Source: Actinomycetota bacterium (GTDB taxonomy: Bacteria; Actinomycetota; Acidimicrobiia; IMCC26256; JAENVU01). Taken from it: DNA of 64,000 nt. Positions 28,815 to 44,033 of this stretch are shown here, piece by piece; positions within the stretch are counted from its first letter, which is position 1, and the number at the start of each line of letters is the position of its first letter. The DNA is taken from positions 1 to 64,000 of the forward strand of contig VGBT01000011.1 in NCBI GenBank assembly GCA_016870395.1, read 5' to 3'. The position numbers and the translations under genes are program-made. The notes beneath the pieces are model-generated. The model ran no database searches. It was not told the DNA's origin and saw only the letters and a program-made list of their open reading frames with translations.

Positions 28815-30030
28815 CGGCGCGCTCGGAGACGGGCGGCGAACCCTCCACCATCGCGACGAACGCCTCCAAGGCGGGCTTGGGCGTTCGATCGTGGCGCACC
28901 AGCCCGTACGCGTCCTCGACGTCGCGGCCGGCGCTCTTGTCGCGTGCGGAGAACCACAGGAGCGGTCCCGTGAACTTCCACCGGTCCCAGAGGTCGTAGT
29001 ACGCGCGCAGCCACTCGGCCTGGTCGTGCTCGCTCACCGCGCCCGAGCCGCGCGTGGGCGCGCCCACCTCGGTGCCCCAGATGCGCTTGTCGCCGTCGCC
29101 GCGCTCGGCCATCAGGAGGTGGAGGCGCTCGGTCTGGCGGAACGCGTTTGTGTCCTCGGGGGAGAGCGGGTGGTTCGGGTACTGGTAGGGGTGGTGGGCG
29201 ACCGCGTCGAAGGCGGGGCCGGCGCCGGCGTCGTACACGCGACGCAGGAACGTAAGCGGAGAGAGGTCTCCGTCGTGGTCGCCGCCGGGTGAGAGGCCAC
29301 CCGAGATCACAATCGCCTCGGGGTCGGCGGCGCGGATGGCGCGTGAGGCGGCGACGAGCGTGCGCGCGTAGGCGGACGCGTCGGCACCCGGGCTCCAGAA
29401 CACCGCGTGGTTCGGCTCGTTCCAGACCTCGAAGTGATGCACGCCACGCGGCGCGTAGCGCGCGGCGACGAGGCCCGCGAACGCGCCGAAGGCGTCGGGA
29501 TCCTGCGGCGCGCACTCGTAGTGGCGGCATCGAGGGTCGGCGGCCCAGGGCGGCGCGTAGGTGACGACCGCGACCACCGACATGCCCCGAGCACGCGCGC
29601 CGTCCACGACGCGGTCGGTGCCCGTCCAGTCGAAGCCGCCGGGCGTCGGCTCCACGTGTCCCCAGTCGACGGTGGCGCGCAGCCAGCGGGCCCCGGTGCC
29701 CGCCATGAGGTCGAGGTCGCGCTCGACGTCTGCCGGGGGCACGGCGCGGTTCAGCTCGAAGCCGTGGGCGAACCCGGCGCGGTCGCCGGTGACCGTGAAC
29801 CGCCGCGCCTCGGCGGGGCCGGTGCGCGGGAGGATGGCCCGCGGGTCGGTCGGCGTCTCCAGAGCCGGGGACGGTCGGGTGCTCGCCGCCGCGGGGTCGG
29901 CGCGGTTCGGCGCTTCGGAGCCCGCGCAGCCGGCCACGAGGACCACGAGCACCGCCAGCACGACCGTGAACGCGGGCACTGCCGGCACCGCCGCCGAGTG
30001 GTGGGCAGCACGGGTGGGGCGGGTGACCAT
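28801..30030 (-). CDS. Secreted glycoside hydrolase lipoprotein (clan GH-A, GH39-like)
   Basis: A 409-aa protein with an N-terminal signal and lipobox LVAGC, so it should be lipid-anchored outside the membrane. The mature part is a TIM-barrel hydrolase: WLRATVDWGHVEPTPGGFDW, the acid/base motif FEVWNEPNHAVFW, HHPYQYPN, and the likely nucleophile WGTEVG. Clan GH-A fits; GH5 and GH39 are both possible, and the substrate is unknown. It is transcribed away from recA. Confidence 0.83.
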   Translation of the reverse strand: MVTRPTRAAHHSAAVPAVPAFTVVLAVLVVLVAGCAGSEAPNRADPAAASTRPSPALETPTDPRAILPRTGPAEARRFTVTGDRAGFAHGFELNRAVPPADVERDLDLMAGTGARWLRATVDWGHVEPTPGGFDWTGTDRVVDGARARGMSVVAVVTYAPPWAADPRCRHYECAPQDPDAFGAFAGLVAARYAPRGVHHFEVWNEPNHAVFWSPGADASAYARTLVAASRAIRAADPEAIVISGGLSPGGDHDGDLSPLTFLRRVYDAGAGPAFDAVAHHPYQYPNHPLSPEDTNAFRQTERLHLLMAERGDGDKRIWGTEVGAPTRGSGAVSEHDQAEWLRAYYDLWDRWKFTGPLLWFSARDKSAGRDVEDAYGLVRHDRTPKPALEAFVAMVEGSPPVSERAVRRR

Positions 30031-30092
30031 CGCACGAGTCTCGCGGAGCCGGCGCGCTCGGCCCGTTCGCTGGGCCGTGCTCTGGCCGGTGC

Positions 30093-30121
30093 TTGCATCG
30101 AACGAATGTTCGCTCTAGGCT
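30093..30121 (+). promoter_or_regulatory. recA promoter with LexA (SOS) box in the spacer
   Basis: TTGCAT (30093-30098) and TAGGCT (30116-30121) are 17 nt apart. The spacer contains CGAACGAATGTTCG (30099-30112), a perfect CGAAC-N4-GTTCG LexA box. LexA bound here would block RNA polymerase directly. Confidence 0.88.
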
Positions 30122-30207
30122 GCTCACACGCATGGAGTTCCACCGGTGGGATTCACCCGATAGACCGGATTTGGCGGGAGCCCCCGGGCCTCCCGCCGTC
30201 GAATGAG

Positions 30208-30232
30208 TGTCACACCCCCGTCGTAGGTTCCC
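30208..30232 (+). promoter_or_regulatory. recA leader motif shared with the LysM gene
   Basis: TGTCACACCCCCGT (30208-30221), then CGTA, then GGTTCCC (30226-30232). The same two blocks occur at 42963-42983 without the CGTA. TAGGTT inside it could also be a second, LexA-independent -10. Confidence 0.6.
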
Positions 30233-30298
30233 CGAGCACCGCTTCCCCCGACCGATCGACACCGGCCACAGGCCGCCGAAGCGAAGAAGGAGTCCACG

Positions 30299-31345
<1,047 letters not shown>

Positions 31346-31372
31346 AGCACCAGCCACTGAACCCGGTCACGA

Positions 31373-31420
31373 AGCTGTCGCGGCCATCTCACGCCCCAGC
31401 GTGCGCAAGCCGCGACAGTC
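31373..31420 (+). repeat. 48-bp palindromic element, copy B
   Basis: Arms AGCTGTCGCG and CGCGACAGTC (9 bp pair, plus GAAG/CTTC beyond a bulge). Inner CTCACGC pairs with GCGTGCG around CCCA. Ungapped alignment to copy A gives 35 of 48 identities. Two inner pairs differ from copy A by wobble-to-Watson-Crick changes. Located after recA. Confidence 0.85.
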
Positions 31421-31459
31421 TTCGCGTCGGGTGCCGGGACGCGTGGGTCTGGCGGGGGC

Positions 31460-32194
31460 TCAGAGGGAGCTGAGGCCGTTCACGATCGCGACGGTCCCCG
31501 CGGCGGCGGCGAACACGAGCACGGCCGGGCGCAGCACCTTCGGGTGCAGCCGCGGGCCCATGAAGTGGCTGATCGCCAGGCCGACGAGCAGGCCCGGCAG
31601 GAGCACGAGCGAGAGCGCGAGCTGCTCGAGGGTGAGGTCTCCGGCGATCCCGAGTGCGATGCCGCTCATCGCCGCGCCGGCGACGAAGCACACCGCGAGC
31701 GTCGCCCGGATCGTGTGTCCCTCGTGGTGCTGGTAGAGGAGCGCCATCGGCGGGCCGTCGACTGCCGCGGCGGTGCCCATCGCCCCGGCGGCGAAGCCAC
31801 TCGTGAGGGCGCTGTGGCGGTTGACCCCCACGCCGGGATGTACCAGCGAGAGCACCACCCCCGCCACGATCACGACGCCGACGACGGTGGCGAGCAGCGC
31901 GTCGGACACCAGGGCCACCACGAGCAGCCCCAGCAGCGTGCCGGGGACTCGACCGGTCAGGATCCAGCGCACGCCGAACCAGTCGATGGCGTGGTGCTCG
32001 CGCAGGAGCATCGTGATCGTGAGCGGCAGCGACAGCAGCACCATCGAGCCCGGTACCGACCCGGGGGCGAGGACCGCCATCACCGGCGCCACCATGAGGT
32101 TGATCCCGAAGCCGATCGAGCCCTGCACCACGGCCCCCACCACCACGATCGCGAGGCAGCCCGCGAGCTCCCAGCCGCCGACGTCGAGGGGCAT
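31460..32194 (-). CDS. TSUP-family (TauE/SafE) membrane permease
   Basis: A 244-aa integral membrane protein with about eight hydrophobic segments and the glycine-rich VVVGAVVQGSIGFGINLMVAP start typical of TauE/SafE proteins. An internal second half begins near TSGFAAGAMGTAAAVDGPPM. Family members move sulfite, sulfoacetate or other organic anions; the cargo cannot be told. It converges on recA across the palindromic element. Confidence 0.85.
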   Translation of the reverse strand: MPLDVGGWELAGCLAIVVVGAVVQGSIGFGINLMVAPVMAVLAPGSVPGSMVLLSLPLTITMLLREHHAIDWFGVRWILTGRVPGTLLGLLVVALVSDALLATVVGVVIVAGVVLSLVHPGVGVNRHSALTSGFAAGAMGTAAAVDGPPMALLYQHHEGHTIRATLAVCFVAGAAMSGIALGIAGDLTLEQLALSLVLLPGLLVGLAISHFMGPRLHPKVLRPAVLVFAAAAGTVAIVNGLSSL

Positions 32195-32272
32195 CGAGCT
32201 CAGAGAGCCCGCGCGCGAAGGCGGCAGGGCGTGGGCTCGCGCATCGGGCGGATCCTAGGACCCCGGTCCCCG

Positions 32273-32278
32273 TAGGAT
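32273..32278 (+). promoter_or_regulatory. Leaderless-type -10 for miaB
   Basis: TAGGAT is 8 nt before GTG 32287 and only 2 nt before GTG 32281, favouring the later start. Confidence 0.55.
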
Positions 32279-32286
32279 CGGTGGTC

Positions 32287-33672
32287 GTGACCCGTCGCTT
32301 CCACGTCCGCACCTTCGGGTGCCAGATGAACGAGCACGACTCCGAGCGCCTCGCCGGGCTGCTGGCGGCCGACGGCCTCGAGCCCACCGACCGGGTCGAG
32401 GACGCCGACGTCGTGATCCTCAACACCTGCTGCATCCGCGAGAACGCCGACAACAAGCTCTACGGGCACCTCGGGCACCTGCGTTCCCTCAAGGAGGCCC
32501 GGCCCGACCTCCAGATCGCGGTCGGCGGCTGCCTGGCGCAGAAGGACCGCGACCTCATCGTGGCCCGTGCCGACCACGTCGACGTGGTCTTCGGTACCCA
32601 CAACCTCGCCCACGCCCCCGCGCTCCTCGCCGAGTCGCGCCGCACCGGTGCCCCGGTCGTCGAGATCCTCGACGAGCACGAGGCCTATCCCTCGGCGCTC
32701 CCGGCTCGCCGCGAGGTCGACCACCGGGCGTGGGTCACGATCCAGATCGGCTGCGACAACGCGTGCGCGTTCTGCATCGTGCCGATCGTGCGTGGCCCCG
32801 AGGTGAGTCGCCGGCTCGGCGACGTCGTCCGCGAAGTGGAGGAGCTCGCCGCCGACGGGGTCTCGGAGATCACGCTGCTGGGCCAGAACGTCAACTCGTA
32901 CGGCCGCGACCTCGGGGCCGGCCAGTGGCGACCGCAGTTTGCTGACCTCCTGCGTGCGATCGACGCGGTCGACGGCATCCGGCGTGTCCGGTTCACGTCG
33001 CCGCACCCGAAGGACCTGCGCCCGGAGACCATCGCCGCGATGGCCGAGTGCGAGACCGTGTGCGAGCACCTGCACCTCCCATTGCAGTCCGGAAGCGATC
33101 GCACGCTCGCGCGGATGCATCGCGGCTACACGGCCGAGCGCTACCTCGCGCGGCTCGCGGCCGCTCGCGCCACGATCCCCGACCTTGCAGTCACGACCGA
33201 CCTCATCGTGGGGTTTCCGGGCGAGACCGACGCCGACTTCGAGGCCACCCTCGCTGTGGTGGAAGAGGCCTCGTACGACGCCGCGTACACGTTCGTGTTC
33301 TCACCCCGGCCGGGCACGCCGGCCGGGGCGATGACCGACGAGCTCGTCGACGGCGCCGTCGTCCGCGAGCGCATGGATCGACTCGCGGAACTGGTCGAGC
33401 GTCACGCGCTCGCTCGACACGAGGCGCGGATCGGCCAGGTCGAGGAGGTGCTCGTGGATGGACCGTCGAAGAAGGACCCTGCGGTGCTCGCCGCGCGTAC
33501 CAGGCAGCACAAGCTCGTGCACTTCGCCGCGCCGGAATCCGCGTTGACGCCGGGGACGTACGCCCGGGTCCGCGTCACCGGCGCCGCGCCGCACTGGCTG
33601 CGCAGCGAGCTCCTCGACGCTGAGCCCTCGCCTTCGGCCCGGCGGGTCCGCATCCCGGTCACGGCAGGCTGA
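32287..33672 (+). CDS. miaB: tRNA-2-methylthio-N6-dimethylallyladenosine synthase
   Basis: Radical-SAM methylthiotransferase acting on i6A37 of tRNA, 461 aa. N-terminal cysteines lie in TFGCQMNEHD, LNTCCIRENA and GGCLAQKD. The radical-SAM motif is CDNACAFC. LHLPLQSGSDRTLARMHRGY and GFPGETDADF are MiaB-typical, with a C-terminal TRAM domain. The next gene, miaA, provides its substrate modification. Start GTG 32287 is chosen from -10 spacing; GTG 32281 is the alternative. Confidence 0.94.
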   Translation: MTRRFHVRTFGCQMNEHDSERLAGLLAADGLEPTDRVEDADVVILNTCCIRENADNKLYGHLGHLRSLKEARPDLQIAVGGCLAQKDRDLIVARADHVDVVFGTHNLAHAPALLAESRRTGAPVVEILDEHEAYPSALPARREVDHRAWVTIQIGCDNACAFCIVPIVRGPEVSRRLGDVVREVEELAADGVSEITLLGQNVNSYGRDLGAGQWRPQFADLLRAIDAVDGIRRVRFTSPHPKDLRPETIAAMAECETVCEHLHLPLQSGSDRTLARMHRGYTAERYLARLAAARATIPDLAVTTDLIVGFPGETDADFEATLAVVEEASYDAAYTFVFSPRPGTPAGAMTDELVDGAVVRERMDRLAELVERHALARHEARIGQVEEVLVDGPSKKDPAVLAARTRQHKLVHFAAPESALTPGTYARVRVTGAAPHWLRSELLDAEPSPSARRVRIPVTAG

Positions 33673-33675
33673 GCC

Positions 33676-34599
33676 ACGGCCACGCACCTCGCCCTCGTCG
33701 GGCCGACCGCGGTCGGCAAGTCCGCGCTGGCGCTGCGCCTGGCGCGGGAGCTCGGCGACGTCGAGATCGTCTCGCTCGACTCGATGCAGGTGTACCGGCG
33801 CATGGACGTCGGTACCGCAAAGGCTTCGGAGGCGGAGCGGGCGCTGGTGCCGCACCACCTGATCGACGTCGTGGAGCCGTGGGAGTCGTGGTCGGCGTCC
33901 CGGACGCAGACCGAGGCCCGCGCGGCGATCGAGGCCATCGAGGCGCACGGGCGCCGCGCGCTGCTCGTCGGCGGGACCGGTCTCTACCTGCAGGCGGTGA
34001 TCGACGCCCTGCGCTTCCCCGGCGAGGACCTCGTCCTGCGCGCGCGGCTGGAGGCCGAGGTCGCCGAGCCCGAAGGGCTGGCCGGCGCGTACGCGCGCCT
34101 CGCGACGCTCGATCCGCAGGCCGCTGCTCGCATCGAACCCGCGAACACGCGCCGCATCGTGCGCGCACTGGAGGTGATCGAGCTCACGGGCGCGCCGTTC
34201 TCCGCTTCCGGGCCGGGGGTGGGGGAGTACGGCGCCACGGTCTTCCCGGTACGGCTCGCCGGGCTGAGCCTGGCCACGAGCCGGCTCGGCGAACGGATCG
34301 CGGCACGGTTCGCCGGCATGCGGGCGGCCGGGCTGCTGGCCGAGGTCGAGGCGCTGGCCGCCGATCCTCGCGGTTGGTCGCGCACCGCGCGGCAGGCCAT
34401 CGGCTACAAGGAGGTGCTCGCCCACCTCCAGGGATTCGAGCCGAGTCTCGATGGGGCCCTCGACGCCGCCGTGCGCCGGACGCGCTCGTTCGCCCGGCGG
34501 CAGCGGGCCTGGTTCCGCCGTGATCCCCGCATCACCTGGTTCAACGCGGAATGCGGCGCGACCGAGGCGGAGTTGCTGGCATGGTGGTGTCGCCCATGA
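33676..34599 (+). CDS. miaA: tRNA dimethylallyltransferase with apparent ACG start
   Basis: Transfers dimethylallyl to A37 of tRNA before MiaB acts. The frame immediately after the miaB stop reads GCC, ACG, then ATHLALVGPTAVGKSALAL, which is the MiaA N-terminus with P-loop GPTAVGKS. SLDSMQVYRRMDVGTAK and LVGGTGLYLQAVID follow. No ATG, GTG or TTG exists in this frame between the miaB stop and ATG 33784, which is past the P-loop. ACG 33676 is where the initiator belongs, giving 307 aa, a normal length. It is either a non-canonical start or an ATG-to-ACG change. The 3' end overlaps dapF by four bases. Confidence 0.85.
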   Translation, partial: TATHLALVGPTAVGKSALALRLARELGDVEIVSLDSMQVYRRMDVGTAKASEAERALVPHHLIDVVEPWESWSASRTQTEARAAIEAIEAHGRRALLVGGTGLYLQAVIDALRFPGEDLVLRARLEAEVAEPEGLAGAYARLATLDPQAAARIEPANTRRIVRALEVIELTGAPFSASGPGVGEYGATVFPVRLAGLSLATSRLGERIAARFAGMRAAGLLAEVEALAADPRGWSRTARQAIGYKEVLAHLQGFEPSLDGALDAAVRRTRSFARRQRAWFRRDPRITWFNAECGATEAELLAWWCRP

Positions 34600-35453
34600 C
34601 CACGTTCCGAGCCTCGAAGCTCCACGCCACCGGCAACGACTTCGTCGTCGTACCTGCCGACGCGGCTGCGTTCACCGCTGCCGACGCCGTCGCGCTCTGC
34701 GACCGCCATCGAGGGATCGGAGCCGACGGGCTGTTGGTCCTGGGGCCGGGGGGCGACGGCGCCGACGCGACGATGACCCTCTACAACGCCGACGGTGGCT
34801 TCGCCGAGATGAGCGGCAACGGTGCCCGTTGCCTCGCCTGGGCCGCGCGCCGAGCGGGCTATGGCGAGCCGGAGCGGCTGGTCGTCGACACCGGAGGCGG
34901 TCGCCGCGTCCTCGAGCTCACGCTCGACGCCGACAAGGACGTGGCGCACGCGGTGTGCGACATGGGTCCGGTCACCTTCGAGCCGGCCGAGATCCCGCTC
35001 GCGGCGCCCAGTTCCTTCGGACTCGCTGCGGAGGTCCACGGCGTCGCGTACGACGGCGACGCCGCCGGGATGGGGAACCCCCACCTCGTCCTCTTCGTCG
35101 ACGACCCGGCCACCGCGCGCGTCGCCCAGCACGGACCGCGCCTCGAGCACGACGCTCGTTTCCCCGCACGGACGAACGTCGAGTTCGTCGCGCCGACGCC
35201 CGGGGAGCGCGATGCGCTCACGATGCGGGTCTGGGAGCGAGGCGTGGGCGAGACGCTCTCGTGCGGCACGGGCGCGTGCGCCGCGGCCGCCGCCGCCCGT
35301 CGGCGTGGGCTGGTCGGAGACCGCGTGACCGTGCACGTGCCCGGCGGCGACCTCTCGGTGCTCGTGGGGGCAACCATCCGGCTCGGCGGGCCGGTGGTGC
35401 ACGTCTTCGACGTCGACGTCGACCTTGCGGCACTGCGTCGCGAATCCCGATGA
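34596..35453 (+). CDS. dapF: Diaminopimelate epimerase
   Basis: Interconverts LL- and meso-diaminopimelate, 285 aa. The catalytic cysteine pair is Cys79 (SGNGARC) and Cys223 (SCGTGAC). KLHATGNDFVV near the N-terminus and GMGNPHLVLF are family motifs. Start ATG 34596 overlaps the miaA TGA as ATGA; in-frame starts at 34581 or earlier would extend into miaA. It overlaps hflX by four bases. Confidence 0.95.
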   Translation: MTTFRASKLHATGNDFVVVPADAAAFTAADAVALCDRHRGIGADGLLVLGPGGDGADATMTLYNADGGFAEMSGNGARCLAWAARRAGYGEPERLVVDTGGGRRVLELTLDADKDVAHAVCDMGPVTFEPAEIPLAAPSSFGLAAEVHGVAYDGDAAGMGNPHLVLFVDDPATARVAQHGPRLEHDARFPARTNVEFVAPTPGERDALTMRVWERGVGETLSCGTGACAAAAAARRRGLVGDRVTVHVPGGDLSVLVGATIRLGGPVVHVFDVDVDLAALRRESR

Positions 35454-36802
35454 GCCGGGCGCACCTCGACCGCCAGCGGCGCCGGCTCACCGCCACCGAG
35501 ACCGATCTCGGCGTCGTCCGCCAGCGCGCGCTGCTCGTCGGCACCGGTGCCGGGACCCGTTCGGCGGAGGAGGCGGAGGCCAGCCTCGAGGAGCTGGCGC
35601 TCCTGGCCGACACCGCCGGGGCCGACGCGGTGGCCTCGGAGCTGCAGCGGCGCGACTTGCCCGACCCGGCCACCTACATCGGCAAGGGCAAGGCCCGGGA
35701 GATCGCGGAGCTCGCGGAGGGGCTCGACGTCGACGTCGTGATCTTCGACGACGAGCTGTCGCCCGCGCAGCAGCGCAACCTCGAGCAGCTCTTCGAGCGC
35801 GACGTCGTCGACCGGGTGGCGCTGATCCTCGACATCTTCGCCCAGCACGCAGCCAGCCAGGAAGGCATGCTCCAGGTCGAGCTTGCGCAGCTTCGGTACC
35901 GCCTGCCGCGTCTGCGCGGCCGCGGCATCACGCTGTCGCAGCAGGGAGCCGGCATCGGCACCCGCGGTCCCGGTGAGACCCAACTCGAGGTCGACCGGCG
36001 CCGTATCCAGCGGCGCATCACGAAGCTCGAGCACGATCTGGTGCGCCTGGGCAAGATTCGAGCCACCCAGCGCAAAGCACGCGACCGGCGCGCGCTTACC
36101 ACCGTCGCGCTCGTCGGCTACACGAACGCAGGGAAGTCGACGCTGCTGAACCGGTGTACGCATGCGCACTCGCTCGTCGAGGATCGGCTCTTCTCGACGC
36201 TGGACCCGACCACGCGGCGGCTTCGCCTGGCCGGGGGTGAGACGGTGCTGCTGTCGGACACGGTCGGCTTCGTGCGACGGCTCCCGCATCAGCTCGTCGA
36301 GGCGTTCCGATCGACGCTCGAGGAGGTGTGCGACGCCGACTACCTGGTCCATCTGGTCGACGCCGGCGCACCCGAGCCCTACGGGAGGATCGAGGCCGTT
36401 CGCACCGTGCTGCGCGAGATCGGCGCGGGTGGGGTCCCCGAGCTGCTCGTCTTCACGAAGTCCGACAGGGTCTCCGGGTCCGATCTTGCGAGCCTGCTCC
36501 GTTCGCATCCCGACTCGGTGGGGTGCTCGGCTCGTACCGGCGAGGGTGTCGACGCGTTCGTGGCGCTGCTGGGCGAACGACTGCGGGCGCTCGAGGAGGT
36601 CGTGGAGCTGCGGGTTCCCTACGACCGGTGCGAGGTGCTCGCGTCGCTGCATCGGGAAGGCGAGGTGCTCGTCGAGGTCTACGAGGAGGGTGGCACGCGG
36701 GTCCGGGCGCGGCTGCCCGACGCGGTGGCGAGCCGGTACCGAGACCTGGTTGCAAACCCGCCCGCGACCGGAGAGCCCGGGGCCGCGGCCGGCGGCCGGT
36801 AG
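35450..36802 (+). CDS. hflX: Ribosome-rescuing GTPase HflX
   Basis: A 450-aa HflX-family GTPase that splits stalled ribosomes in studied bacteria. The N-terminal domain includes YIGKGKAREIAEL and the glycine-rich GAGIGTRGPGETQLEVDRRR segment. The GTPase domain has GYTNAGKST, DTVGFVRRLPHQLVEAFRST, and G4 TKSD in place of NKxD. A short C-terminal domain follows. Start ATG 35450 overlaps the dapF stop (ATGA). Its stop TAG is the first part of the dapC -10. Confidence 0.93.
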   Translation: MSRAHLDRQRRRLTATETDLGVVRQRALLVGTGAGTRSAEEAEASLEELALLADTAGADAVASELQRRDLPDPATYIGKGKAREIAELAEGLDVDVVIFDDELSPAQQRNLEQLFERDVVDRVALILDIFAQHAASQEGMLQVELAQLRYRLPRLRGRGITLSQQGAGIGTRGPGETQLEVDRRRIQRRITKLEHDLVRLGKIRATQRKARDRRALTTVALVGYTNAGKSTLLNRCTHAHSLVEDRLFSTLDPTTRRLRLAGGETVLLSDTVGFVRRLPHQLVEAFRSTLEEVCDADYLVHLVDAGAPEPYGRIEAVRTVLREIGAGGVPELLVFTKSDRVSGSDLASLLRSHPDSVGCSARTGEGVDAFVALLGERLRALEEVVELRVPYDRCEVLASLHREGEVLVEVYEEGGTRVRARLPDAVASRYRDLVANPPATGEPGAAAGGR

Positions 36803-36805
36803 TCT
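36800..36805 (+). promoter_or_regulatory. Leaderless-type -10 overlapping the hflX stop
   Basis: TAGTCT contains the hflX TAG stop; 6 nt later is GTG 36812. Confidence 0.6.
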
Positions 36806-36811
36806 CGCCGC

Positions 36812-37954
36812 GTGGCGCCGCCCGAGGGGTTCGTCCCGCCGCCGTACCCGCACGACCGTCTCGACGCGCTGCGCCGTCTGGCCGATGCTGCGCCCGGGGG
36901 CGCGGTCGACTGCTCGATCGGCAACCCCGTCGACCCGATCCCGGAGGTCGCGCTGGTCGCGCTGGCGCGGGCGGGGGCCAATGCGATGGTGTACCCCCCC
37001 ACGATCGGCACCCCCGAGCTTCGTGAGGCCGCGACGGACTGGATGGATCGCTGCTTCGGCGTGCGGATACCGGCGGACCACGTGGTCGCGTGCGTCGGCA
37101 CCAAGGAGCTCGTGGCCTCGCTGCCGCGCCTGCTCTCGTTGCGCGATCCGAGCCGCGACACCGTGCTGTACCCGGCGGTGGCGTACCCCACCTACGCCAT
37201 GGGGGCCCAGCTCGCCGGCCTGCGCGCGGTGCCGGTGCCGCTCGACGACGGCTGGCAGCCGGATCTCGCACGCGTACGCGAGGCGGACGCGGACCGCGCG
37301 CTCCTGCTGTGGACGAACAGCCCGGGCAACCCCACCGCGGCGGTCGCCGACGGGCCCCGGACCGAGGAGACGGTCGCCTGGGCGCGCGAGCGCGGCGTCG
37401 TGCTCGCGGCCGACGAGTGCTACGCGGAATTCTCAGGTGGTCCGCCCGCGACTGCCTTGCTCGCCGGCACCGACGGCGTGCTCGCCCTGCACTCCCTGTC
37501 GAAGCGGTCCAACATGGCCGGCTTCCGAGTGGGCTTCGTCGCCGGCGACGGCGATCTCGTGCGCTACCTGGGTGAGACCCGCAAGCACGCCGGGTTGATC
37601 GTCCCCACCCCGATCCAGGCCGCGGCGGCGGCCGCCCTCGGCGACGACGATCACGTCGACGACCAGCGCGCGCGCTACGCCGATCGCCGCGCGCTGATGC
37701 TGGAGGGCCTCGCGGCCCACGGGCTCGTGCACGACGGCGGTCCGGCACCGTTCTACCTGTGGCTGCGCGCCGAGGGCGCGGCCGACGACGGCTGGGAGAT
37801 CGCCGCGCGTCTGGCCGAGGCGGGCACCCTGGTCGCGCCCGGCAACCTCTACGGCCCGGCGGCGGCCGACCACGTGCGCCTGGCGCTCACCCAGCCGCGG
37901 GAACGGCTCGAGCTGTCGTTGGCGCGCCTCGCGGAGTCGGCGGCCCGCGCCTGA
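36812..37954 (+). CDS. dapC: Succinyldiaminopimelate aminotransferase
   Basis: Class I/II PLP aminotransferase, 380 aa, assigned to the succinylase lysine branch by its place between dapF and dapD. Motifs include DCSIGNPVDPIPE, YPAVAYPTYAMGA, NSPGNPTAAV, DECYAEF and the Schiff-base lysine in SLSKRSNMAGFRVGF. Start GTG 36812 lies 6 nt after the -10 and has no ribosome binding site. General aminotransferase activity is certain; the exact substrate rests on context. Confidence 0.9.
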   Translation: MAPPEGFVPPPYPHDRLDALRRLADAAPGGAVDCSIGNPVDPIPEVALVALARAGANAMVYPPTIGTPELREAATDWMDRCFGVRIPADHVVACVGTKELVASLPRLLSLRDPSRDTVLYPAVAYPTYAMGAQLAGLRAVPVPLDDGWQPDLARVREADADRALLLWTNSPGNPTAAVADGPRTEETVAWARERGVVLAADECYAEFSGGPPATALLAGTDGVLALHSLSKRSNMAGFRVGFVAGDGDLVRYLGETRKHAGLIVPTPIQAAAAAALGDDDHVDDQRARYADRRALMLEGLAAHGLVHDGGPAPFYLWLRAEGAADDGWEIAARLAEAGTLVAPGNLYGPAAADHVRLALTQPRERLELSLARLAESAARA

Positions 37955-37983
37955 ACGTTCGGCTCCGAGCGGTCCGGGCCACG

Positions 37984-37989
37984 TAGCCT
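37984..37989 (+). promoter_or_regulatory. Leaderless-type -10 for dapD
   Basis: TAGCCT, 7 nt, then ATG 37997. Confidence 0.6.
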
Positions 37990-37996
37990 GGCCCGC

Positions 37997-38824
37997 ATGG
38001 CCGACCTCGAAGCACAGATCACCGAGCTCTGGGAGCATCGCGACGACCTGGCATCGGTGATGCCCGAGGCGCAGGTCGCGGCGACCGTGCGAGAGGCGAT
38101 CGACCTGCTCGACCGCGGGGAGGTCCGGGTTGCCGAGGTCGTCGACGGCGAAGTCGTCGTGCACCAGTGGGCGAAGCTCGCGATCCTGCTGCTGTTCCGC
38201 ACCACGAAAATGAGCGTCGCCGAGGTGGGGCCGTTCGAGTACCGCGACAAGATCCCGCTCAAGCGCGACTACGAGGCCGCCGGGGTGCGGGTCGTGCCTG
38301 GGGCCTCGGCTCGGTGGGGCGCGTACCTCGCGCCCGGAGTCGTGATGATGCCGAGCTACGTGAACATCGGCGCGCACGTGGGGGCCGACACGATGGTCGA
38401 CACCTGGGCGACGGTGGGATCGTGCGCCCAGATCGGGGCGCGCGTGCACCTCTCCGGTGGGGTCGGCATCGGAGGGGTGCTCGAGCCACCGCAGGCCGCG
38501 CCCATCATGGTCGGCGACGACGCGTTCATCGGGTCGCGCTCGATGGTGGTCGAAGGCGCGCGCGTCGGCACCGGTGCGGTGCTGGGCGCGGGCACGATCC
38601 TCTCGGGCTCCGTGCCGGTGATCGACGCCGAGACCGGCGAGGAGCTGCATCGCGGCGTCGTTCCCGACTGGACGGTCTGCGTCACCGCGACCAGACCGCG
38701 GGCGTTTTCGGGAGGCGAGTTCGGGTTGCCGTGCGTGCTGGTGATCAAGCGGCTCACCGAGGGCGAACGCCACGACAAGGCCCAGCTCAACGAGGTCCTC
38801 CGCGAAGGCGGCGTGACCACGTGA
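37997..38824 (+). CDS. dapD: Tetrahydrodipicolinate N-succinyltransferase
   Basis: Trimeric left-handed beta-helix succinyltransferase, 275 aa. The hexapeptide core contains MMPSYVNIGAHVGADTMVDT, WATVGSCAQIG and HLSGGVGIGGVLEPPQA. Length and motifs follow the E. coli-type DapD rather than the longer mycobacterial form (about 317 aa), which is unusual for this phylum. dapE follows 82 nt later. Confidence 0.94.
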   Translation: MADLEAQITELWEHRDDLASVMPEAQVAATVREAIDLLDRGEVRVAEVVDGEVVVHQWAKLAILLLFRTTKMSVAEVGPFEYRDKIPLKRDYEAAGVRVVPGASARWGAYLAPGVVMMPSYVNIGAHVGADTMVDTWATVGSCAQIGARVHLSGGVGIGGVLEPPQAAPIMVGDDAFIGSRSMVVEGARVGTGAVLGAGTILSGSVPVIDAETGEELHRGVVPDWTVCVTATRPRAFSGGEFGLPCVLVIKRLTEGERHDKAQLNEVLREGGVTT

Positions 38825-38906
38825 GCGAGCGTCCGCGAGGCGGGTATCCCGCCGAGCAGCGAGCGTGGCCCGAGCGGCCCCGGCTGCAGGCCGGAGAGCG
38901 GGAAGG

Positions 38907-39989
38907 ATGACCGGTCCGGCCCTTGCCGTCGACCTGCTGGCGCTCACCGAGCAGCTCTGCGCCGTCCCGTCGGAGAGCCTGCACGAGACGGCACTCGCCG
39001 ACCTGGTGGAAGCGCGCCTGCGCGAGCGCGCGTCCGGGCTGCGCGTGGATCGCCAGGGCGACAACGTGGTGGTCCGCACCGAGCTCGGACGCGAGCAGCG
39101 GGTCGTGCTCGGCGGCCATCTCGACACCGTGCCGGCCAACGGCAACGAGCGGCCGCGACGGGCCGACGACGTGGTGCACGGTCTCGGCGCGGCCGACATG
39201 AAGGGCGGCCTCGCGGTGCTGCTCGCCCTGGCCGAGGCGTTGCACCGGGCGCCGGAGTCGGCGCGCTTCGACGCGACGCTCGTGTTCTACGCGGCCGAGG
39301 AGATCGCCGAGGAGCACAACGGCCTGCGGGAGCTGTTCGCCGAGCGGCCGGCGTGGGTCGCTGGTGACCTGGCGGTCCTGCTCGAGCCCACGGGCGCATG
39401 GGTCGAGGCAGGCTGCCAGGGGACGCTGCACGTGCGGGCCACCTTCCGAGGTGCGCGGGCCCATTCGGCCCGGCCGTGGACGGGGGTCAACGCGATCCAT
39501 CGTCTCGCCGACGTGTTGGCTCGGATCGCGGCACACGAAGCCGACACGGTCGACCTCGACGGCCTGGCCTACCGGGAGTCGCTGCAGGTCGTGGGGATCG
39601 AGGGGGGAGTGGCGAACAACGTCGTGCCCGACCAGGCGTCACTCCTGGTCAACCGACGGTTCGCTCCGTGCTACTCGGTCGAGGAGGCGACGCTGCAGGT
39701 GCGCGCGCTGCTCGCCGGTGCCGACGAGATCGAGGTCGTGAACGCGTCCCCGGCTGCGCCGCCGAACCTGTGGGACCCGCTGGTGGCCGAGCTGATCGGG
39801 ACGTTCGATCTCGGTGTGCGACCCAAGCTCGGATGGACCGACGTGGCGCGCTTCGCGGCAGTTGGAGTTCCTGCCCTCAATTTCGGGCCGGGCGACCCGG
39901 CGATCTCGCACACCGCCGACGAGCACGTCACCCGTGCGTCGCTCGAGAGCTGCTATGCCGTGCTGGGCCGCTTCCTGGGTGTGGCGTGA
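38907..39989 (+). CDS. dapE: Succinyl-diaminopimelate desuccinylase
   Basis: M20-family zinc hydrolase, 360 aa from ATG 38907. Metal and catalytic motifs are GGHLDTVPANG near residue 70, HGLGAADMKGG near 91 and YAAEEIAEEHNG near 130. The dimerisation domain contains GARAHSARPWTGVNAIH. The C-terminal HTADEHV supplies the last metal ligand. An in-frame GTG at 38865 would add 14 unsupported residues; GGAAGG and GAGAG precede 38907. Completes the dap series. Confidence 0.92.
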   Translation: MTGPALAVDLLALTEQLCAVPSESLHETALADLVEARLRERASGLRVDRQGDNVVVRTELGREQRVVLGGHLDTVPANGNERPRRADDVVHGLGAADMKGGLAVLLALAEALHRAPESARFDATLVFYAAEEIAEEHNGLRELFAERPAWVAGDLAVLLEPTGAWVEAGCQGTLHVRATFRGARAHSARPWTGVNAIHRLADVLARIAAHEADTVDLDGLAYRESLQVVGIEGGVANNVVPDQASLLVNRRFAPCYSVEEATLQVRALLAGADEIEVVNASPAAPPNLWDPLVAELIGTFDLGVRPKLGWTDVARFAAVGVPALNFGPGDPAISHTADEHVTRASLESCYAVLGRFLGVA

Positions 39990-39999
39990 CGAGCCGACG

Positions 40000-40668
40000 A
40001 TGACCCTGCGGGTCGAGCCGCGTGACGCGGTGCGGGTGGTGCACTGGGAGGACGGCGACAACCGGGTGAACCACGCGTCGATGCAGGCGTGGCACGAGCT
40101 GCTCGACGAGCTCGAGGACATCGACGAGCCGTTCGCCCTGGTCGTGACGGGCGCGGGGAAGTTCTTCTCGAATGGGTTGGACCTCGACCGGTTTGCGGCC
40201 GTGCCTGACGAGGCCGGACCGACGGTCGAGGCGCTGCAGCGACTGTTCGGGCGCCTCCTGCTGTTCCCCGCGTACACGGTGGCGGCGATCAACGGGCACG
40301 CGTTCGCGGCCGGGGCGATGCTCAGCTGCGCGTTCGACGCCCGGGTCATGCGCGAGGACCGAGGCTACTGGTGCCTGCCCGAGGTCGACCTCGGCCTGCC
40401 GCTCAGCGAAGCGATGGCGGCGGTGGTGACCGCGCGCCTGCCGGCGCCGGCGGCGCAGGACGCGATGCTCACCGGTCGTCGGTACGGCGGCCCCGCGGCC
40501 CTGGCGACCGGGATCGTGTCGGCCGCGGTGCCCGAGGCGGAGGTCCTCGACGTCGCCGTGGCGCTCGCGGCCGAGGTCGCGACGAAGGACCGCCGGGTGA
40601 TCGCGGAGCACAAGCGGCTCCTCTTCGGCGCGGCAGCCGAGGTGTGCGGCTACGCGCCCGGACGCTGA
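40000..40668 (+). CDS. Enoyl-CoA hydratase/isomerase-family protein
   Basis: A 222-aa crotonase-fold protein. The oxyanion-hole segments are SNGLDLDRFAAV near residue 55 and INGHAFAAGAMLSCAFD near 95. It is short, like enoyl-CoA isomerases, and the hydratase Glu pair is not obvious (PEVDLGLPLSEA). It starts 10 nt after dapE. The role is probably in fatty acid catabolism; reaction unresolved. Confidence 0.83.
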   Translation: MTLRVEPRDAVRVVHWEDGDNRVNHASMQAWHELLDELEDIDEPFALVVTGAGKFFSNGLDLDRFAAVPDEAGPTVEALQRLFGRLLLFPAYTVAAINGHAFAAGAMLSCAFDARVMREDRGYWCLPEVDLGLPLSEAMAAVVTARLPAPAAQDAMLTGRRYGGPAALATGIVSAAVPEAEVLDVAVALAAEVATKDRRVIAEHKRLLFGAAAEVCGYAPGR

Positions 40669-40702
40669 GCCGCGGGTCGAGCGCCCCTCGCGCGCGTGAA
40701 CC

Positions 40703-40708
40703 TATGGT
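40703..40708 (+). promoter_or_regulatory. Leaderless-type -10 for the PNPOx-fold gene
   Basis: TATGGT, 6 nt, then GTG 40715. Confidence 0.5.
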
Positions 40709-40714
40709 GGCGCG

Positions 40715-41224
40715 GTGCACGAGACGCCTGAGGACCTGGTCGCGCTGCGGGACCTCCTCGACCGCAGCTACGAGCTCGGGGGCGTGCACCTCCACGAGGT
40801 GATCACCCCGGAACGGCGCCTCGACGCCGCCGGCGTGGTCGAGCGGCTGCAGGGCATGTGCCTGCTCTCACTGGCAACCGTCACCGCCGACGGGCGACCG
40901 CTCGTGGGACCGGTCGACGGGATCTTCTACCGGGGCCACTGGTACTTCGGGTCGTCGCCGGCATCGGTGCGGTTCCGCCACATCCGGGTCCGGCCCGCCG
41001 TCAGCGCGACGCACCTGCCGGGGGAGGAGTACTCGGTCACGGTGCACGGGCGGGCCGAGATCATCGACGTCGCCAGCCCGACCCAGGCCGGGTTCCGCCG
41101 GGCGCTGCTCGACGTCTACGTGCCCCGGTACGGCCCGGAGTGGGAGACCTTCCTCGACTCGGGGCCGGTCTACGCGCGCATCGACGCCGACCGGATGCTC
41201 ACGTTTCAGATGCCCCCGGAGTGA
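40715..41224 (+). CDS. Pyridoxamine 5'-phosphate oxidase-fold flavin/F420-binding protein
   Basis: A 169-aa split-barrel protein. CLLSLATVTADGRPLVGPVD near residue 50 and FYRGHWYFGSSPASVRFRHI match the PNPOx-like family, which in actinobacteria includes many FMN- or F420-dependent oxidoreductases. The cofactor and substrate cannot be assigned. It is monocistronic by its own -10. Confidence 0.75.
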   Translation: MHETPEDLVALRDLLDRSYELGGVHLHEVITPERRLDAAGVVERLQGMCLLSLATVTADGRPLVGPVDGIFYRGHWYFGSSPASVRFRHIRVRPAVSATHLPGEEYSVTVHGRAEIIDVASPTQAGFRRALLDVYVPRYGPEWETFLDSGPVYARIDADRMLTFQMPPE

Positions 41225-41255
41225 TCGATTGGCGTGCTGCCAAGCTGCGCACGAA

Positions 41256-41261
41256 TAGGGT
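41256..41261 (+). promoter_or_regulatory. Leaderless-type -10 for the small membrane protein
   Basis: TAGGGT, 6 nt, then GTG 41268. Confidence 0.5.
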
Positions 41262-41267
41262 TGGCGG

Positions 41268-41591
41268 GTGGCATACATCGATGTGGACAGCGGCTCGGCG
41301 ATTGCATCCTTGGTCGCGCTCCTGTTCATTGCAGCCGGGATCACGACGCTCGTGCTCGCGATCGTCGTCGTCGTCGACACCGGACGACATCCCGAGGCGG
41401 TCTGGGCGCAGGCCGGTCAGAACCGGATCGTGTGGATCGTGCTTCCACTCGTCCTCTTGGTGGTGTGCGGTGTGGCAAGCCTCGTTGTGAGCATCGTCTA
41501 CTTGACGTCGATCAAGAAGAAGCTGATCGCCATCGAGGAGGCCGGAACAGGGCAGTCCGCGACCTCCGGTGGTGACATCCCGTCGGCGTAG
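41268..41591 (+). CDS. Small two-helix membrane protein, unknown
   Basis: A 107-aa protein with two clear hydrophobic segments (SLVALLFIAAGITTLVLAIV and IVLPLVLLVVCGVASLVVSI) around a short polar loop, and a polar C-terminal tail. I recognise no family. The leaderless-type -10 and good codon structure support it as a gene. Confidence 0.65.
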   Translation: MAYIDVDSGSAIASLVALLFIAAGITTLVLAIVVVVDTGRHPEAVWAQAGQNRIVWIVLPLVLLVVCGVASLVVSIVYLTSIKKKLIAIEEAGTGQSATSGGDIPSA

Positions 41592-41643
41592 ATCAACCCG
41601 AACGCAGATCTGCGGCATCGATCGCGGCCCACTTCGGCGGCGC

Positions 41644-42033
41644 CTATGGGAGCAGCGGCATCCCGCGCTCGTCGAGGGTCCACCCGGGGTTGTGGGCGAC
41701 CTCCCAGCAGTGTCCGTCGGGGTCGGCGAAGTAGCCCGAGTAGCCGCCCCAGAACACCGACTCGGCTGGCTTCAGGATCGTCGCGCCCGCCCCCGCGGCC
41801 GCGGTCATGGCGGCGTCGACGGCGTCCGGGGACCCGAGGTTGATCGCGAGCGCGACCCCGGAGAAGCCGCTGCGCTCGGGGGAGAGGTGCGCATCGGCCG
41901 CGAGCTCGGTGAGAGGGAACAGCGCGACCACCGGTCCGGCGGTGCGCAGGAACGTGACGGCGTCGTTCGAGTCGGCGCCGAGTTCCCAGCCGAGCGCTCG
42001 GTAGAACGCAGTCGCGCGCCCGAGATCGGCCAC
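41644..42033 (-). CDS. VOC/glyoxalase-fold protein, N-terminus in doubt
   Basis: Vicinal-oxygen-chelate protein, 129 aa from GTG 42033. RATAFYRALGWE, and WGGYSGYFADPDGHCWEV near the end, are family motifs. The same frame continues upstream as RVSLVTPGVADLG, the expected first beta-strand, but has no start codon. A GTG at 42074 (MTVRARVSLVTPG) would be in frame if the (CG)6 run at 42054-42065 were one unit shorter. Lies 14 nt downstream of lexA in that reading, so possibly lexA-linked. Confidence 0.7.
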   Translation of the reverse strand: MADLGRATAFYRALGWELGADSNDAVTFLRTAGPVVALFPLTELAADAHLSPERSGFSGVALAINLGSPDAVDAAMTAAAGAGATILKPAESVFWGGYSGYFADPDGHCWEVAHNPGWTLDERGMPLLP

Positions 42034-42088
42034 CCCGGGGGTGACGAGGCTGACGCGCGCGCGCGGACCGTCACGCGAGCGTCGACGC

Positions 42089-42757
42089 TCAGAGGCGCCG
42101 CAGGACGGTGACGACCTTGCCGTAGACGGTGACCTCGGCGGGGTCGAACACCATGTCGGACAGGGCGGGGTTCGCCGGTCGCAGGACGATCTTGCCCTTG
42201 CGGCGCAGGAAGGTCTTGACGGTGGCCTCCTCGCCGGGGATGCCGGCGACGACCGTGTCGCCGTTCTCGGCCGTCTCCTGCTGGCGGACCACCACGTAGT
42301 CGCGATCGAAGATGCCCGCCTCGATCATGGAGTCGCCCCGGACGCGCAGCATGAAGAGCTGTCCGTCGCCGGTGAGGTCCTCGGGGAGGGGGTAGGACTC
42401 CTCGATGTTCTCCGCGGCGAGGACCCCGGTGCCCGCCGCGACGTCGCCGACGAGCGGGACGTGGCGGACCGGGCGGCGGTCGACCGCCGCCCCCGAGCTC
42501 GGGTCGAAGCTGACCTCGAGGGCGCGGGGCTTGGTGTGGTCGCGCCGCAGATAGCCCTTGTCCTGCAGGGCGGCGAGGTGGGCGTGCACCGTGGAGCTCG
42601 AGGAGAGGCCCACGGCCTCGCCGATCTCGCGCACGCTCGGTGGGTAGCCGCGCTGGCGAACCTCGGCGTCGATGAACTCGAGCACCTGGCGCTGGCGGGG
42701 GGTGAGCGCCTGGAGCTGGTGGAGCTCGGCGCGTTGGGTGGTTCGGCGGGTCGTCAT
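42089..42757 (-). CDS. lexA: SOS repressor LexA
   Basis: Self-cleaving repressor, 222 aa. The N-terminal winged helix (LTPRQRQVLEFIDAEVRQRG, then VREIGEAVGLSSSSTVHAHL) binds DNA. The linker holds the expected Ala-Gly cleavage site in GDVAAGTG. Catalytic residues are Ser143 (GDSMIEAG) and Lys181 (ATVKTF). The start is 6 nt after a TATTTT -10, and up to three LexA boxes lie upstream, so it should repress itself and the divergent LysM gene. Confidence 0.96.
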   Translation of the reverse strand: MTTRRTTQRAELHQLQALTPRQRQVLEFIDAEVRQRGYPPSVREIGEAVGLSSSSTVHAHLAALQDKGYLRRDHTKPRALEVSFDPSSGAAVDRRPVRHVPLVGDVAAGTGVLAAENIEESYPLPEDLTGDGQLFMLRVRGDSMIEAGIFDRDYVVVRQQETAENGDTVVAGIPGEEATVKTFLRRKGKIVLRPANPALSDMVFDPAEVTVYGKVVTVLRRL

Positions 42758-42763
42758 GACGGG

Positions 42764-42769
42764 AAAATA
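42764..42769 (-). promoter_or_regulatory. Leaderless-type -10 for lexA
   Basis: Minus-strand TATTTT, 6 nt, then ATG at 42757. A degenerate LexA box fills the region just upstream. Confidence 0.55.
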
Positions 42770-42772
42770 TCA

Positions 42773-42786
42773 CGATCAGGCGTTCG
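42773..42786 (-). promoter_or_regulatory. Degenerate LexA box 3
   Basis: Minus strand CGAACGCCTGATCG: one perfect half-site, two mismatches in the other. Lies between -35 and -10 of lexA. Confidence 0.4.
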
Positions 42787-42789
42787 GGG

Positions 42790-42803
42790 CAAACATCTGT
42801 TCG
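42790..42803 (-). promoter_or_regulatory. LexA box 2
   Basis: Minus strand CGAACAGATGTTTG: one mismatch to CGAAC-N4-GTTCG. It overlaps the -35 position of lexA. Confidence 0.6.
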
Positions 42804-42811
42804 AAAAATCC

Positions 42812-42841
42812 TTGACTACGAACGGACGTTCGTGGTTGGCT
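42812..42841 (+). promoter_or_regulatory. LysM-gene promoter with perfect LexA box
   Basis: TTGACT (42812-42817), LexA box CGAACGGACGTTCG (42819-42832) and TTGGCT (42836-42841) reproduce the recA promoter layout, with the box in the spacer. Confidence 0.8.
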
Positions 42842-42962
42842 GGCACCGAAGAGGCGGTTGCCGGGCCTCGGGCGGAGGGGCCGGGTGGCGGCAGGTGCGC
42901 CGGGTGTCCGGTCGCTTCCGTTCGAGTGGTTGCGGTCGGCGCCCTGTCCAGTTCGCAATGGA

Positions 42963-42983
42963 TGTCACACCCCCGTGGTTCCC
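42963..42983 (+). promoter_or_regulatory. LysM-gene leader motif shared with recA
   Basis: TGTCACACCCCCGT directly followed by GGTTCCC. It begins 130 nt downstream of the LexA box and ends 35 nt before the start codon, so it should be in the mRNA leader. Confidence 0.6.
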
Positions 42984-43018
42984 TGCGGGTACGGACTTCC
43001 CCCCACCAGGAGACCCAG

Positions 43019-43495
43019 ATGGCCGCCGTCATGACCACCCATCAGCCCGCACCGAGGCGAAGCCTCGGCTACGTGTCGAGGCGAAGCCTCGGCTACGTGT
43101 CGAGGCGAAGCCTCACGGGTGTGCCCGCTGCCCCTCGCCGGGCGCACCTGCACGCGGTGCCGGATCCCGCCCCCGCCCCCGGGGTCGTGCTCCGGCGCCG
43201 TCCGCGGGTCACGGCTGCGACGTTCCGGCGGCGGCGCCTCGCCGTCGCGCTGGCTGTCGCGGCCGTGGTTTTGACGGCGGGACGGGCGGGCGCGTCGCTC
43301 GGGAGCTCACCCCTCGCGGCTCCCGAGCGACGCCCGTCGGTCACCGAGTACGTGGTCGAGCCCGGCGACTCGCTCTGGACGGTCGCGGGGGAGCTCGCGC
43401 CCGACGCGGACCCGCGGGCAGTGGTCGACGCGCTGACGAGGACCCGCGGCGAGGCGCCGCTGCTGCCGGGCGAGGTGATCCGCTGGCAGCGGTGA
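43019..43495 (+). CDS. LysM-domain protein, probable SOS-induced division inhibitor
   Basis: A 158-aa protein: a basic, repeat-containing N-terminus, one membrane segment (LAVALAVAAVVLTAGRAGA near residue 75), and a C-terminal LysM domain (YVVEPGDSLWTVAGELAP). Divergence from lexA, a LexA box in its promoter, and this architecture match YneA/DivS-type inhibitors, which hold back septation during DNA damage; function here is inferred. ATG 43019 follows CAGGAGA. Residues ~12-35 are a 24-bp tandem repeat encoding RRSLGYVS twice and RRSLTGVP. Confidence 0.83.
   Translation: MAAVMTTHQPAPRRSLGYVSRRSLGYVSRRSLTGVPAAPRRAHLHAVPDPAPAPGVVLRRRPRVTAATFRRRRLAVALAVAAVVLTAGRAGASLGSSPLAAPERRPSVTEYVVEPGDSLWTVAGELAPDADPRAVVDALTRTRGEAPLLPGEVIRWQR
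43053..43114 (+). repeat. 24-bp in-frame tandem repeat with GCGAAGC mini-hairpins
   Basis: Two identical 24-bp units (43053-43076, 43077-43100) and a 14-bp partial unit (43101-43114). Each contains the palindrome GAGGCGAAGCCTC, whose GCGAAGC core is known to form an unusually stable DNA hairpin. The units encode eight residues each. Confidence 0.93.
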
Positions 43496-43550: not shown

Positions 43551-44033
43551 GTGCGCTGCCCGTACTGCTCCGAGCTCGACGACAAGGTGGTCGACTCCCG
43601 CCTCGCCGACGGGGGCGACGCCATCCGTCGGCGACGGGAGTGCCTGGGCTGCGGCCGACGGTTCACCACCTACGAGCGGCTCGACCCGCTGCCGCTCCAG
43701 GTGCGCAAGCGGGGTGGCGAGCTGGAGGCGTTCGACCGGGCGAAGCTGGCGCGAGGCATCGCCCAGGCGGTGGCGGGACGGCCGATCGCGCCGGTCACGG
43801 TCGACGCGATCGCCCAGGAGATCGAGGAGCAGGTGCGTGCCGCCGGCCCCGAGGTGACCAGCGAGACCGTGGGGCTGGCGGTCCTCGAGCACCTGCGGGC
43901 ACTCGACCCGATCTCGTACCTGCGGTTCGCGTCCGTCTACAAGGGCTTCGAGGACATCGCCGAGTTCGAGGCCGAGGTCTCCGAGCTCCAGAAGCACACC
44001 GCGCCGAAGCGTCGCGCCCCGGCCTCGCCCTGA
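43551..44033 (+). CDS. nrdR: Transcriptional regulator NrdR
   Basis: Zinc-ribbon/ATP-cone repressor of ribonucleotide reductase genes, 160 aa. The zinc site is CPYC near residue 3 and CLGC near 31. RRRRECLGCGRRFTTYERL and the ATP-cone (VRKRGGELEAFDRAKLARGI) are diagnostic. It lies just upstream of nrdJ, its likely target. Confidence 0.95.
   Translation: MRCPYCSELDDKVVDSRLADGGDAIRRRRECLGCGRRFTTYERLDPLPLQVRKRGGELEAFDRAKLARGIAQAVAGRPIAPVTVDAIAQEIEEQVRAAGPEVTSETVGLAVLEHLRALDPISYLRFASVYKGFEDIAEFEAEVSELQKHTAPKRRAPASP

Follow-up and report, generated by a model that had tools for sequence, protein, structure and literature searches.

Two SOS genes, recA and a LysM-domain gene next to lexA, carry the same short sequence in their leaders, downstream of their LexA boxes. 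The question is whether this sequence marks a second regulatory layer on both genes and, if so, what reads it. We followed this up in the 64,000-nucleotide stretch of DNA in which both genes lie (the window), in the 97-contig Acidimicrobiia assembly to which it belongs, and in related genomes. The window contains the 14-mer TGTCACACCCCCGT at 30208-30221 and at 42963-42976, in + orientation both times; 100 dinucleotide-shuffled versions of the window gave no copy. The sharing is real and not due to chance. The features of the two leaders and their surroundings are as follows.

30093-30121, + strand: LexA-controlled promoter of recA, with -35 TTGCAT (30093-30098), LexA box GAACGAATGTTC (30100-30111, kept 5' of recA in relatives) and -10 TAGGCT (30116-30121)
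30208-30217, + strand: PafBC-type -26 element of recA, TGTCACACCC, read in the window
30224-30229, + strand: predicted -10 of the recA PafBC promoter, TAGGTT, 16 nt from the start of TGTC
30299-31345, + strand: recA, GTG start (Pfam RecA, 3.6e-140)
42089-42757, - strand: lexA, divergent from the LysM gene (Pfam LexA_DNA_bind, 2e-27; Peptidase_S24, 2.2e-31)
42791-42802, unstranded: LexA-box-like site AAACATCTGTTC, nearest lexA, kept in relatives
42812-42841, + strand: LexA-controlled promoter of the LysM gene, with -35 TTGACT (42812-42817), LexA box GAACGGACGTTC (42820-42831) and TGG plus TTGGCT (42833-42841), read in the window and compared with relatives
42963-42972, + strand: PafBC-type -26 element of the LysM gene, TGTCACACCC, read in the window and aligned with relatives
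42976-42984, + strand: TGG and hexamer TTCCCT (42979-42984) of the putative LysM PafBC promoter, an extended -10 without A at -11, from an alignment of 39 leaders
43019-43495, + strand: LysM-domain membrane gene, ATG start, AGGAG upstream, a candidate division inhibitor of the YneA/DivS/ChiZ type
43551-44033, + strand: nrdR, 3' of the LysM gene (Pfam Zn_ribbon_NrdR, 9e-22; ATP-cone, 2.3e-15)

The conserved unit and the genes that carry it

An earlier note on this DNA had described a 21-nt match, the 14-mer followed by GGTTCCC, restricted to these two SOS genes. Both copies are there and GGTTCCC does follow in both leaders, but neither the restriction nor the meaning given to GGTTCCC held. In recA, GGTTCCC overlaps the -10 TAGGTT (offset 16-21 from TGTC), whereas in the LysM leader it begins 4 nt closer to the motif. 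Relatives read TAGGGT, TACCGT and others for recA and TGGTTCGAT, TGGTGTGCT and others for the LysM gene. Because the registers differ and the sequence is conserved in neither gene, we rejected homology of this half and regard it as a coincidence. As read across relatives, the conserved unit is TGTCRCACCC-N6-hexamer and not a 21-mer; in recA it takes the form TGTCACACCC-CCGTCG-TAGGTT. A third exact copy of TGTCACACCCCCGT lies 5' of rmuC (C8:79731, gene L046), and the core TGTCRCACCC has 34 matches in the genome compared to 4 for its reversed control, which refutes a confinement to two genes.

At 20 of the 34 sites, counting from the first base of TGTC, [T/G]AnnnT stands at exactly 16 nt (13 of these read TAnnnT), compared to at most 1 of the 34 at any other offset between 10 and 27. 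The genes 3' of the sites include recA, rpsF (which usually heads an rpsF-ssb operon), an SSB paralogue, a UvrD-like helicase, a PD-(D/E)XK nuclease, RmuC, ComM/YifB, ComF, DnaB, DUF559 nuclease-like proteins, and LAGLIDADG and HNH nucleases. DNA-repair genes thus lie 3' of the element, as in a PafBC regulon. Not all sites are at repair genes, as an M23 peptidase also carries one, and the site TGTCAGGAAC at an MFS transporter is probably due to chance. The earlier note would have given up its reading if the motif proved common without a link to damage genes; it is indeed frequent genome-wide, but the link is present. Many start codons of the predicted regulon lie 28-30 nt from TGTC, approximately 6-8 nt past the -10 (L031, L040, L041, L048, L053, L020, and L010), and leaderless mRNAs are therefore predicted for the damage regulon.

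The element is also kept at the recA and LysM leaders of relatives, the other point on which that reading had been made to depend. Counting by eye from the alignment output, we found 32 recA leaders with the element among relatives of the order and class, this one included; A stands at -11 in 31 of them, and the full TAnnnT is present in 27. In relatives, the element typically lies between the LexA box and the gene. Further away, TGTC[AG]-...-TAnnnT is found 5' of recA in Mycobacterium, Rhodococcus, Nocardia, Streptomyces, Cellulomonas, Actinoplanes, and others, and LysM leaders carry the TGTC[AG] element in Mycobacterium, Nocardia, Gordonia, Amycolatopsis, Cellulomonas, Labedella, and Actinomyces. 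The recA element was absent from the Bacillota and Sphingomonas controls, except for one weak match in Litchfieldia, and some relatives have recA or LysM leaders without such a site. A separate observation concerns the recA genes themselves. In G007, G009, G014, G023, G024, and G038, the RecA matches are interrupted near residue 202 or 249, in most cases within an open reading frame of 727-831 aa. These are likely RecA inteins, which are known in some mycobacteria.

PafBC as the probable reader

Judged by its sequence, the element is of the RecA-NDp/PafBC promoter type, TGTC[AG]..-N-TAnnnT. The RecA-NDp consensus is quoted as tTGTCRgtg-8 nt-TAnnnT (PMC5656591), and the recA element matches it except for the leading T and gtg. 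Among the M. tuberculosis variants, given as TGTC[GG/AG/AC]-10N-TA-3N-T (PMC8151990), it matches TGTCAC-10N-TA-3N-T exactly. The pattern with the mycobacterial first T, TTGTCR-N-TAnnnT, has no match in the window because the recA copy reads GTGTC. The known reader of the motif in mycobacteria is PafBC (PMC8151990, PMC8223512), which is activated by single-stranded DNA (ssDNA) and sits between the promoter and sigma domain 4, with PafB reading the -26 motif (PMC11804915).

Both pafB and pafC are present in our genome. Contig C8 carries, in this order, the proteasome alpha subunit, pafA, a DUF3866-like gene, pafB, pafC, and tatC (the proteasome, DUF3866, and TatC assignments were made by eye), with profile matches (L061) to Pup_ligase (1.9e-165), HTH_PafC (1.7e-29), and a WYL+WCX pair. 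It is very probable, on these comparisons, that both copies are PafBC-dependent promoters and that recA and the LysM gene each have a LexA-repressed promoter upstream and a PafBC-activated promoter downstream. In such a system, ssDNA would activate the WYL-domain pair PafB/PafC, which would act as a sigma adapter with PafB reading the -26 element TGTCRCACCC, and the housekeeping RNA polymerase would then open the -10 at the 16-nt offset from TGTC. A LexA-independent promoter with TAGGTT as the recA -10 was one of the readings offered earlier, and it agrees with the fixed spacing, the conservation across Actinomycetota, the repair regulon, and the presence of pafBC. Stripped of the two-gene restriction and of the weight laid on GGTTCCC, the proposal that both SOS genes have a further promoter layer independent of LexA appears well supported.

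It could be argued that the promoters are of the PafBC class and are read by another protein pair. A second adjacent WYL-WCX pair with a pafBC-like layout is complete in the genome (G000:C22:28.6-30.5 kb; L060:4619-6474), and a site TGTCGCACCC-N6-TATCGT is found some 1.1 kb away (L055). However, the profile search gave no HTH_PafC match in this pair, the mycobacterial reader cited above is PafBC, and the excess of the motif follows HTH_PafC. Motif and control counts are 438 and 73 in 46 order-mates with HTH_PafC, compared to 148 and 85 in 42 f22 family genomes that lack it; this co-occurrence is supportive and is confounded with phylogeny and composition, because f22 is one genus of small (~1 Mb) genomes. 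We consider it improbable that the second pair, and not the proteasome-linked PafBC, is the reader.

PafBC-type sites also occur in repeated sequences in relatives. In a class-mate (G140, family f36) we counted 65 such sites, with 1 for the control. Many of them form the 5' end of a dispersed repeat of ~200 bp with a conserved body (L300, L302, L309, L316, and L321, around the match at 1501). The repeat has no Rfam match and shows weak covariation (double changes in 7 of 38 pairs), and it is possibly a multicopy damage-induced RNA or a mobile element with a PafBC promoter. L299 (G224:C10:1900-3400) holds a tandem array with a period of ~47 bp and sites at G224:C10:2404-2804 on the minus strand; each unit bears TGTCGCACCCCTGCCGTACCGT, a promoter of the PafBC type, or a degenerate version of it.

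The putative LysM promoter without A at -11

The LysM copy has the TGTC[A/G] -26 element, but at offset 16, where canonical members have TAnnnT, it reads TTCCCT. We class it as a variant that would work like a PafBC promoter, outside the canonical members. In 39 Acidimicrobiia LysM leaders with a recognizable element (leaders without one were left out of the count, and the relatives are not independent), T is present at offset 16 (-12) and at offset 21 (-7) in all 39, TG at offsets 13-14 in 37, and offset 17 (-11) is T in 28, G in 6, C in 5, and A in none, so that the -10 reads TGn-T[T/G/C]nnnT. Information content drops to background just past offset 21, and none of the 39 leaders has an alternative TAnnnT -10 at offsets 8-44. 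As the sites were picked by the -26 block (12 of them via loosened forms) and never by the -10, this choice does not account for the missing A. The set omits one extra L095 match that overlaps a LexA box, and Aquihabitans was treated apart; its hexamer, GAGACT, keeps the A and has G at -12. The LysM leaders of Cellulomonas, Labedella, and Actinomyces, reading TG[G/A]-T[G/C]nnCT, resemble those of Acidimicrobiia in lacking the A.

The LexA-controlled promoter of the LysM gene, TTGACT-18-TTGGCT with TGG upstream, is likewise without A at -11, and in relatives its -10 is mostly TTnnnT or CAnnnT and in a few cases TAnnnT. We rejected the idea that promoters of this genome generally lack the A, as its other LexA promoters have TAnnnT, for example TAGGGT, TAGCGT, TACGAT, and TAGGCT (that of recA). 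The A at -11 is the base whose flipping out begins melting; TGn adds an extended -10 contact that compensates. Whereas the recA promoter would open at an ordinary TAnnnT, the missing A at the LysM promoter may prevent expression of a division-arresting product as long as the activator is absent. That the promoter is deliberately weak and low in leakage, as would suit a candidate division inhibitor, has in our estimate about an even chance of being right. The same balance applies to the wider proposal that the Acidimicrobiia LysM promoters are a distinct class, combining a PafBC -26 element with a TGn -10 selected against A, in which both damage pathways and weak, activator-dependent melting would make a low-leak switch.

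The LysM assignment itself depends on orthologues. The Pfam LysM match of our copy is below the cut-off (E 0.18), and we assign the domain because orthologues match it (3.3e-8, 4.7e-5, and 0.0084, with one orthologue without a match). The location next to lexA and the LexA boxes fit a division inhibitor. In the N-terminal coding region, at 43053-43114 of the window, there is a 24-bp tandem repeat of 2.6 perfect copies that encodes RRSLGYVS repeats and is a possible length-variable site.

As the LysM -10 fails the TAnnnT rule, the site could be silent or otherwise regulated. A decayed promoter, or a protein site that is not a promoter, would fit the hexamer TTCCCT and the lack of A in 39 of 39 leaders. 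Decay, however, is not expected to leave T at -12, T at -7, the upstream TGn, and the 16-nt offset invariant or nearly so, with conservation that stops past -7, and the gene and the direction of the site match rv2719c, which is reported to be PafBC controlled (PMC8151990). Such an explanation therefore seems quite improbable. The earlier note had also offered an mRNA element, which would fit the position of the motif inside both leaders if transcription begins at the upstream LexA promoters. This was rejected, as the region 29900-43200 has no Rfam match and conservation in the LysM leader ends at the -10. Moreover, with many regulon genes beginning so close to TGTC, the motif would lie outside their own transcripts, and conservation in two sharply bounded blocks, the second of them -10-like, is what a DNA element would show, so we give this reading very little credence. 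Chance similarity, for which only the differing registers of GGTTCCC would speak, is hardly conceivable given the shuffles, the genome-wide excess, and the retention in relatives, and for the core element it is already refuted by the spacing peak and conservation.

Comparison with known systems

The mycobacterial RecA-NDp/PafBC promoter (recA P1) shares with our element TGTC[A/G], the distance to TAnnnT, and the position at recA beside a LexA promoter, and the mycobacterial system also shares the DNA-repair regulon and the pafA-pafB-pafC operon. The consensus differs, as mycobacteria have tTGTCRgtg (often GTG) whereas our genome has TGTCRCACCC, with CACCC, and its -10 may be GAnnnT. Our literature search found no work on PafBC in the class Acidimicrobiia. 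The present analysis extends a damage response studied in mycobacteria to a little-studied class, with its own consensus and predicted regulon.

In M. tuberculosis, the same element has been reported at recA and rv2719c, and the PafBC motif beside lexA is oriented away from that gene and governs the rv2719c operon (PMC8151990). Rv2719c/ChiZ is a damage-induced negative regulator of division (PMC3989709). Our LysM gene lies between divergent lexA and nrdR, which is the rv2719c neighborhood, and it shares with rv2719c the orientation away from lexA and the combination of LexA boxes with a PafBC-type element. The lexA/LysM layout with the TGTC[AG] element is also found in Mycobacterium, Nocardia, Gordonia, and Amycolatopsis. 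Together with the rv2719c reports, this means that placing recA and the LysM gene under two layers of control is a known arrangement, seen here in a new lineage. Like YneA, DivS, and ChiZ, the LysM product would be an SOS-controlled small membrane protein with a C-terminal LysM domain, encoded beside lexA; here it is a candidate by sequence and differs in its LysM score and in a low-complexity N-terminal region with the tandem repeat. The LysM copy of the element may be the new part, as Acidimicrobiia have TGn-T[T/G/C]nnnT where the Mycobacterium LysM leader keeps TAGCGT. This promoter is a natural test of a sigma adapter working without the most conserved -10 base, and it bears on how a division inhibitor is silenced where two damage pathways converge.
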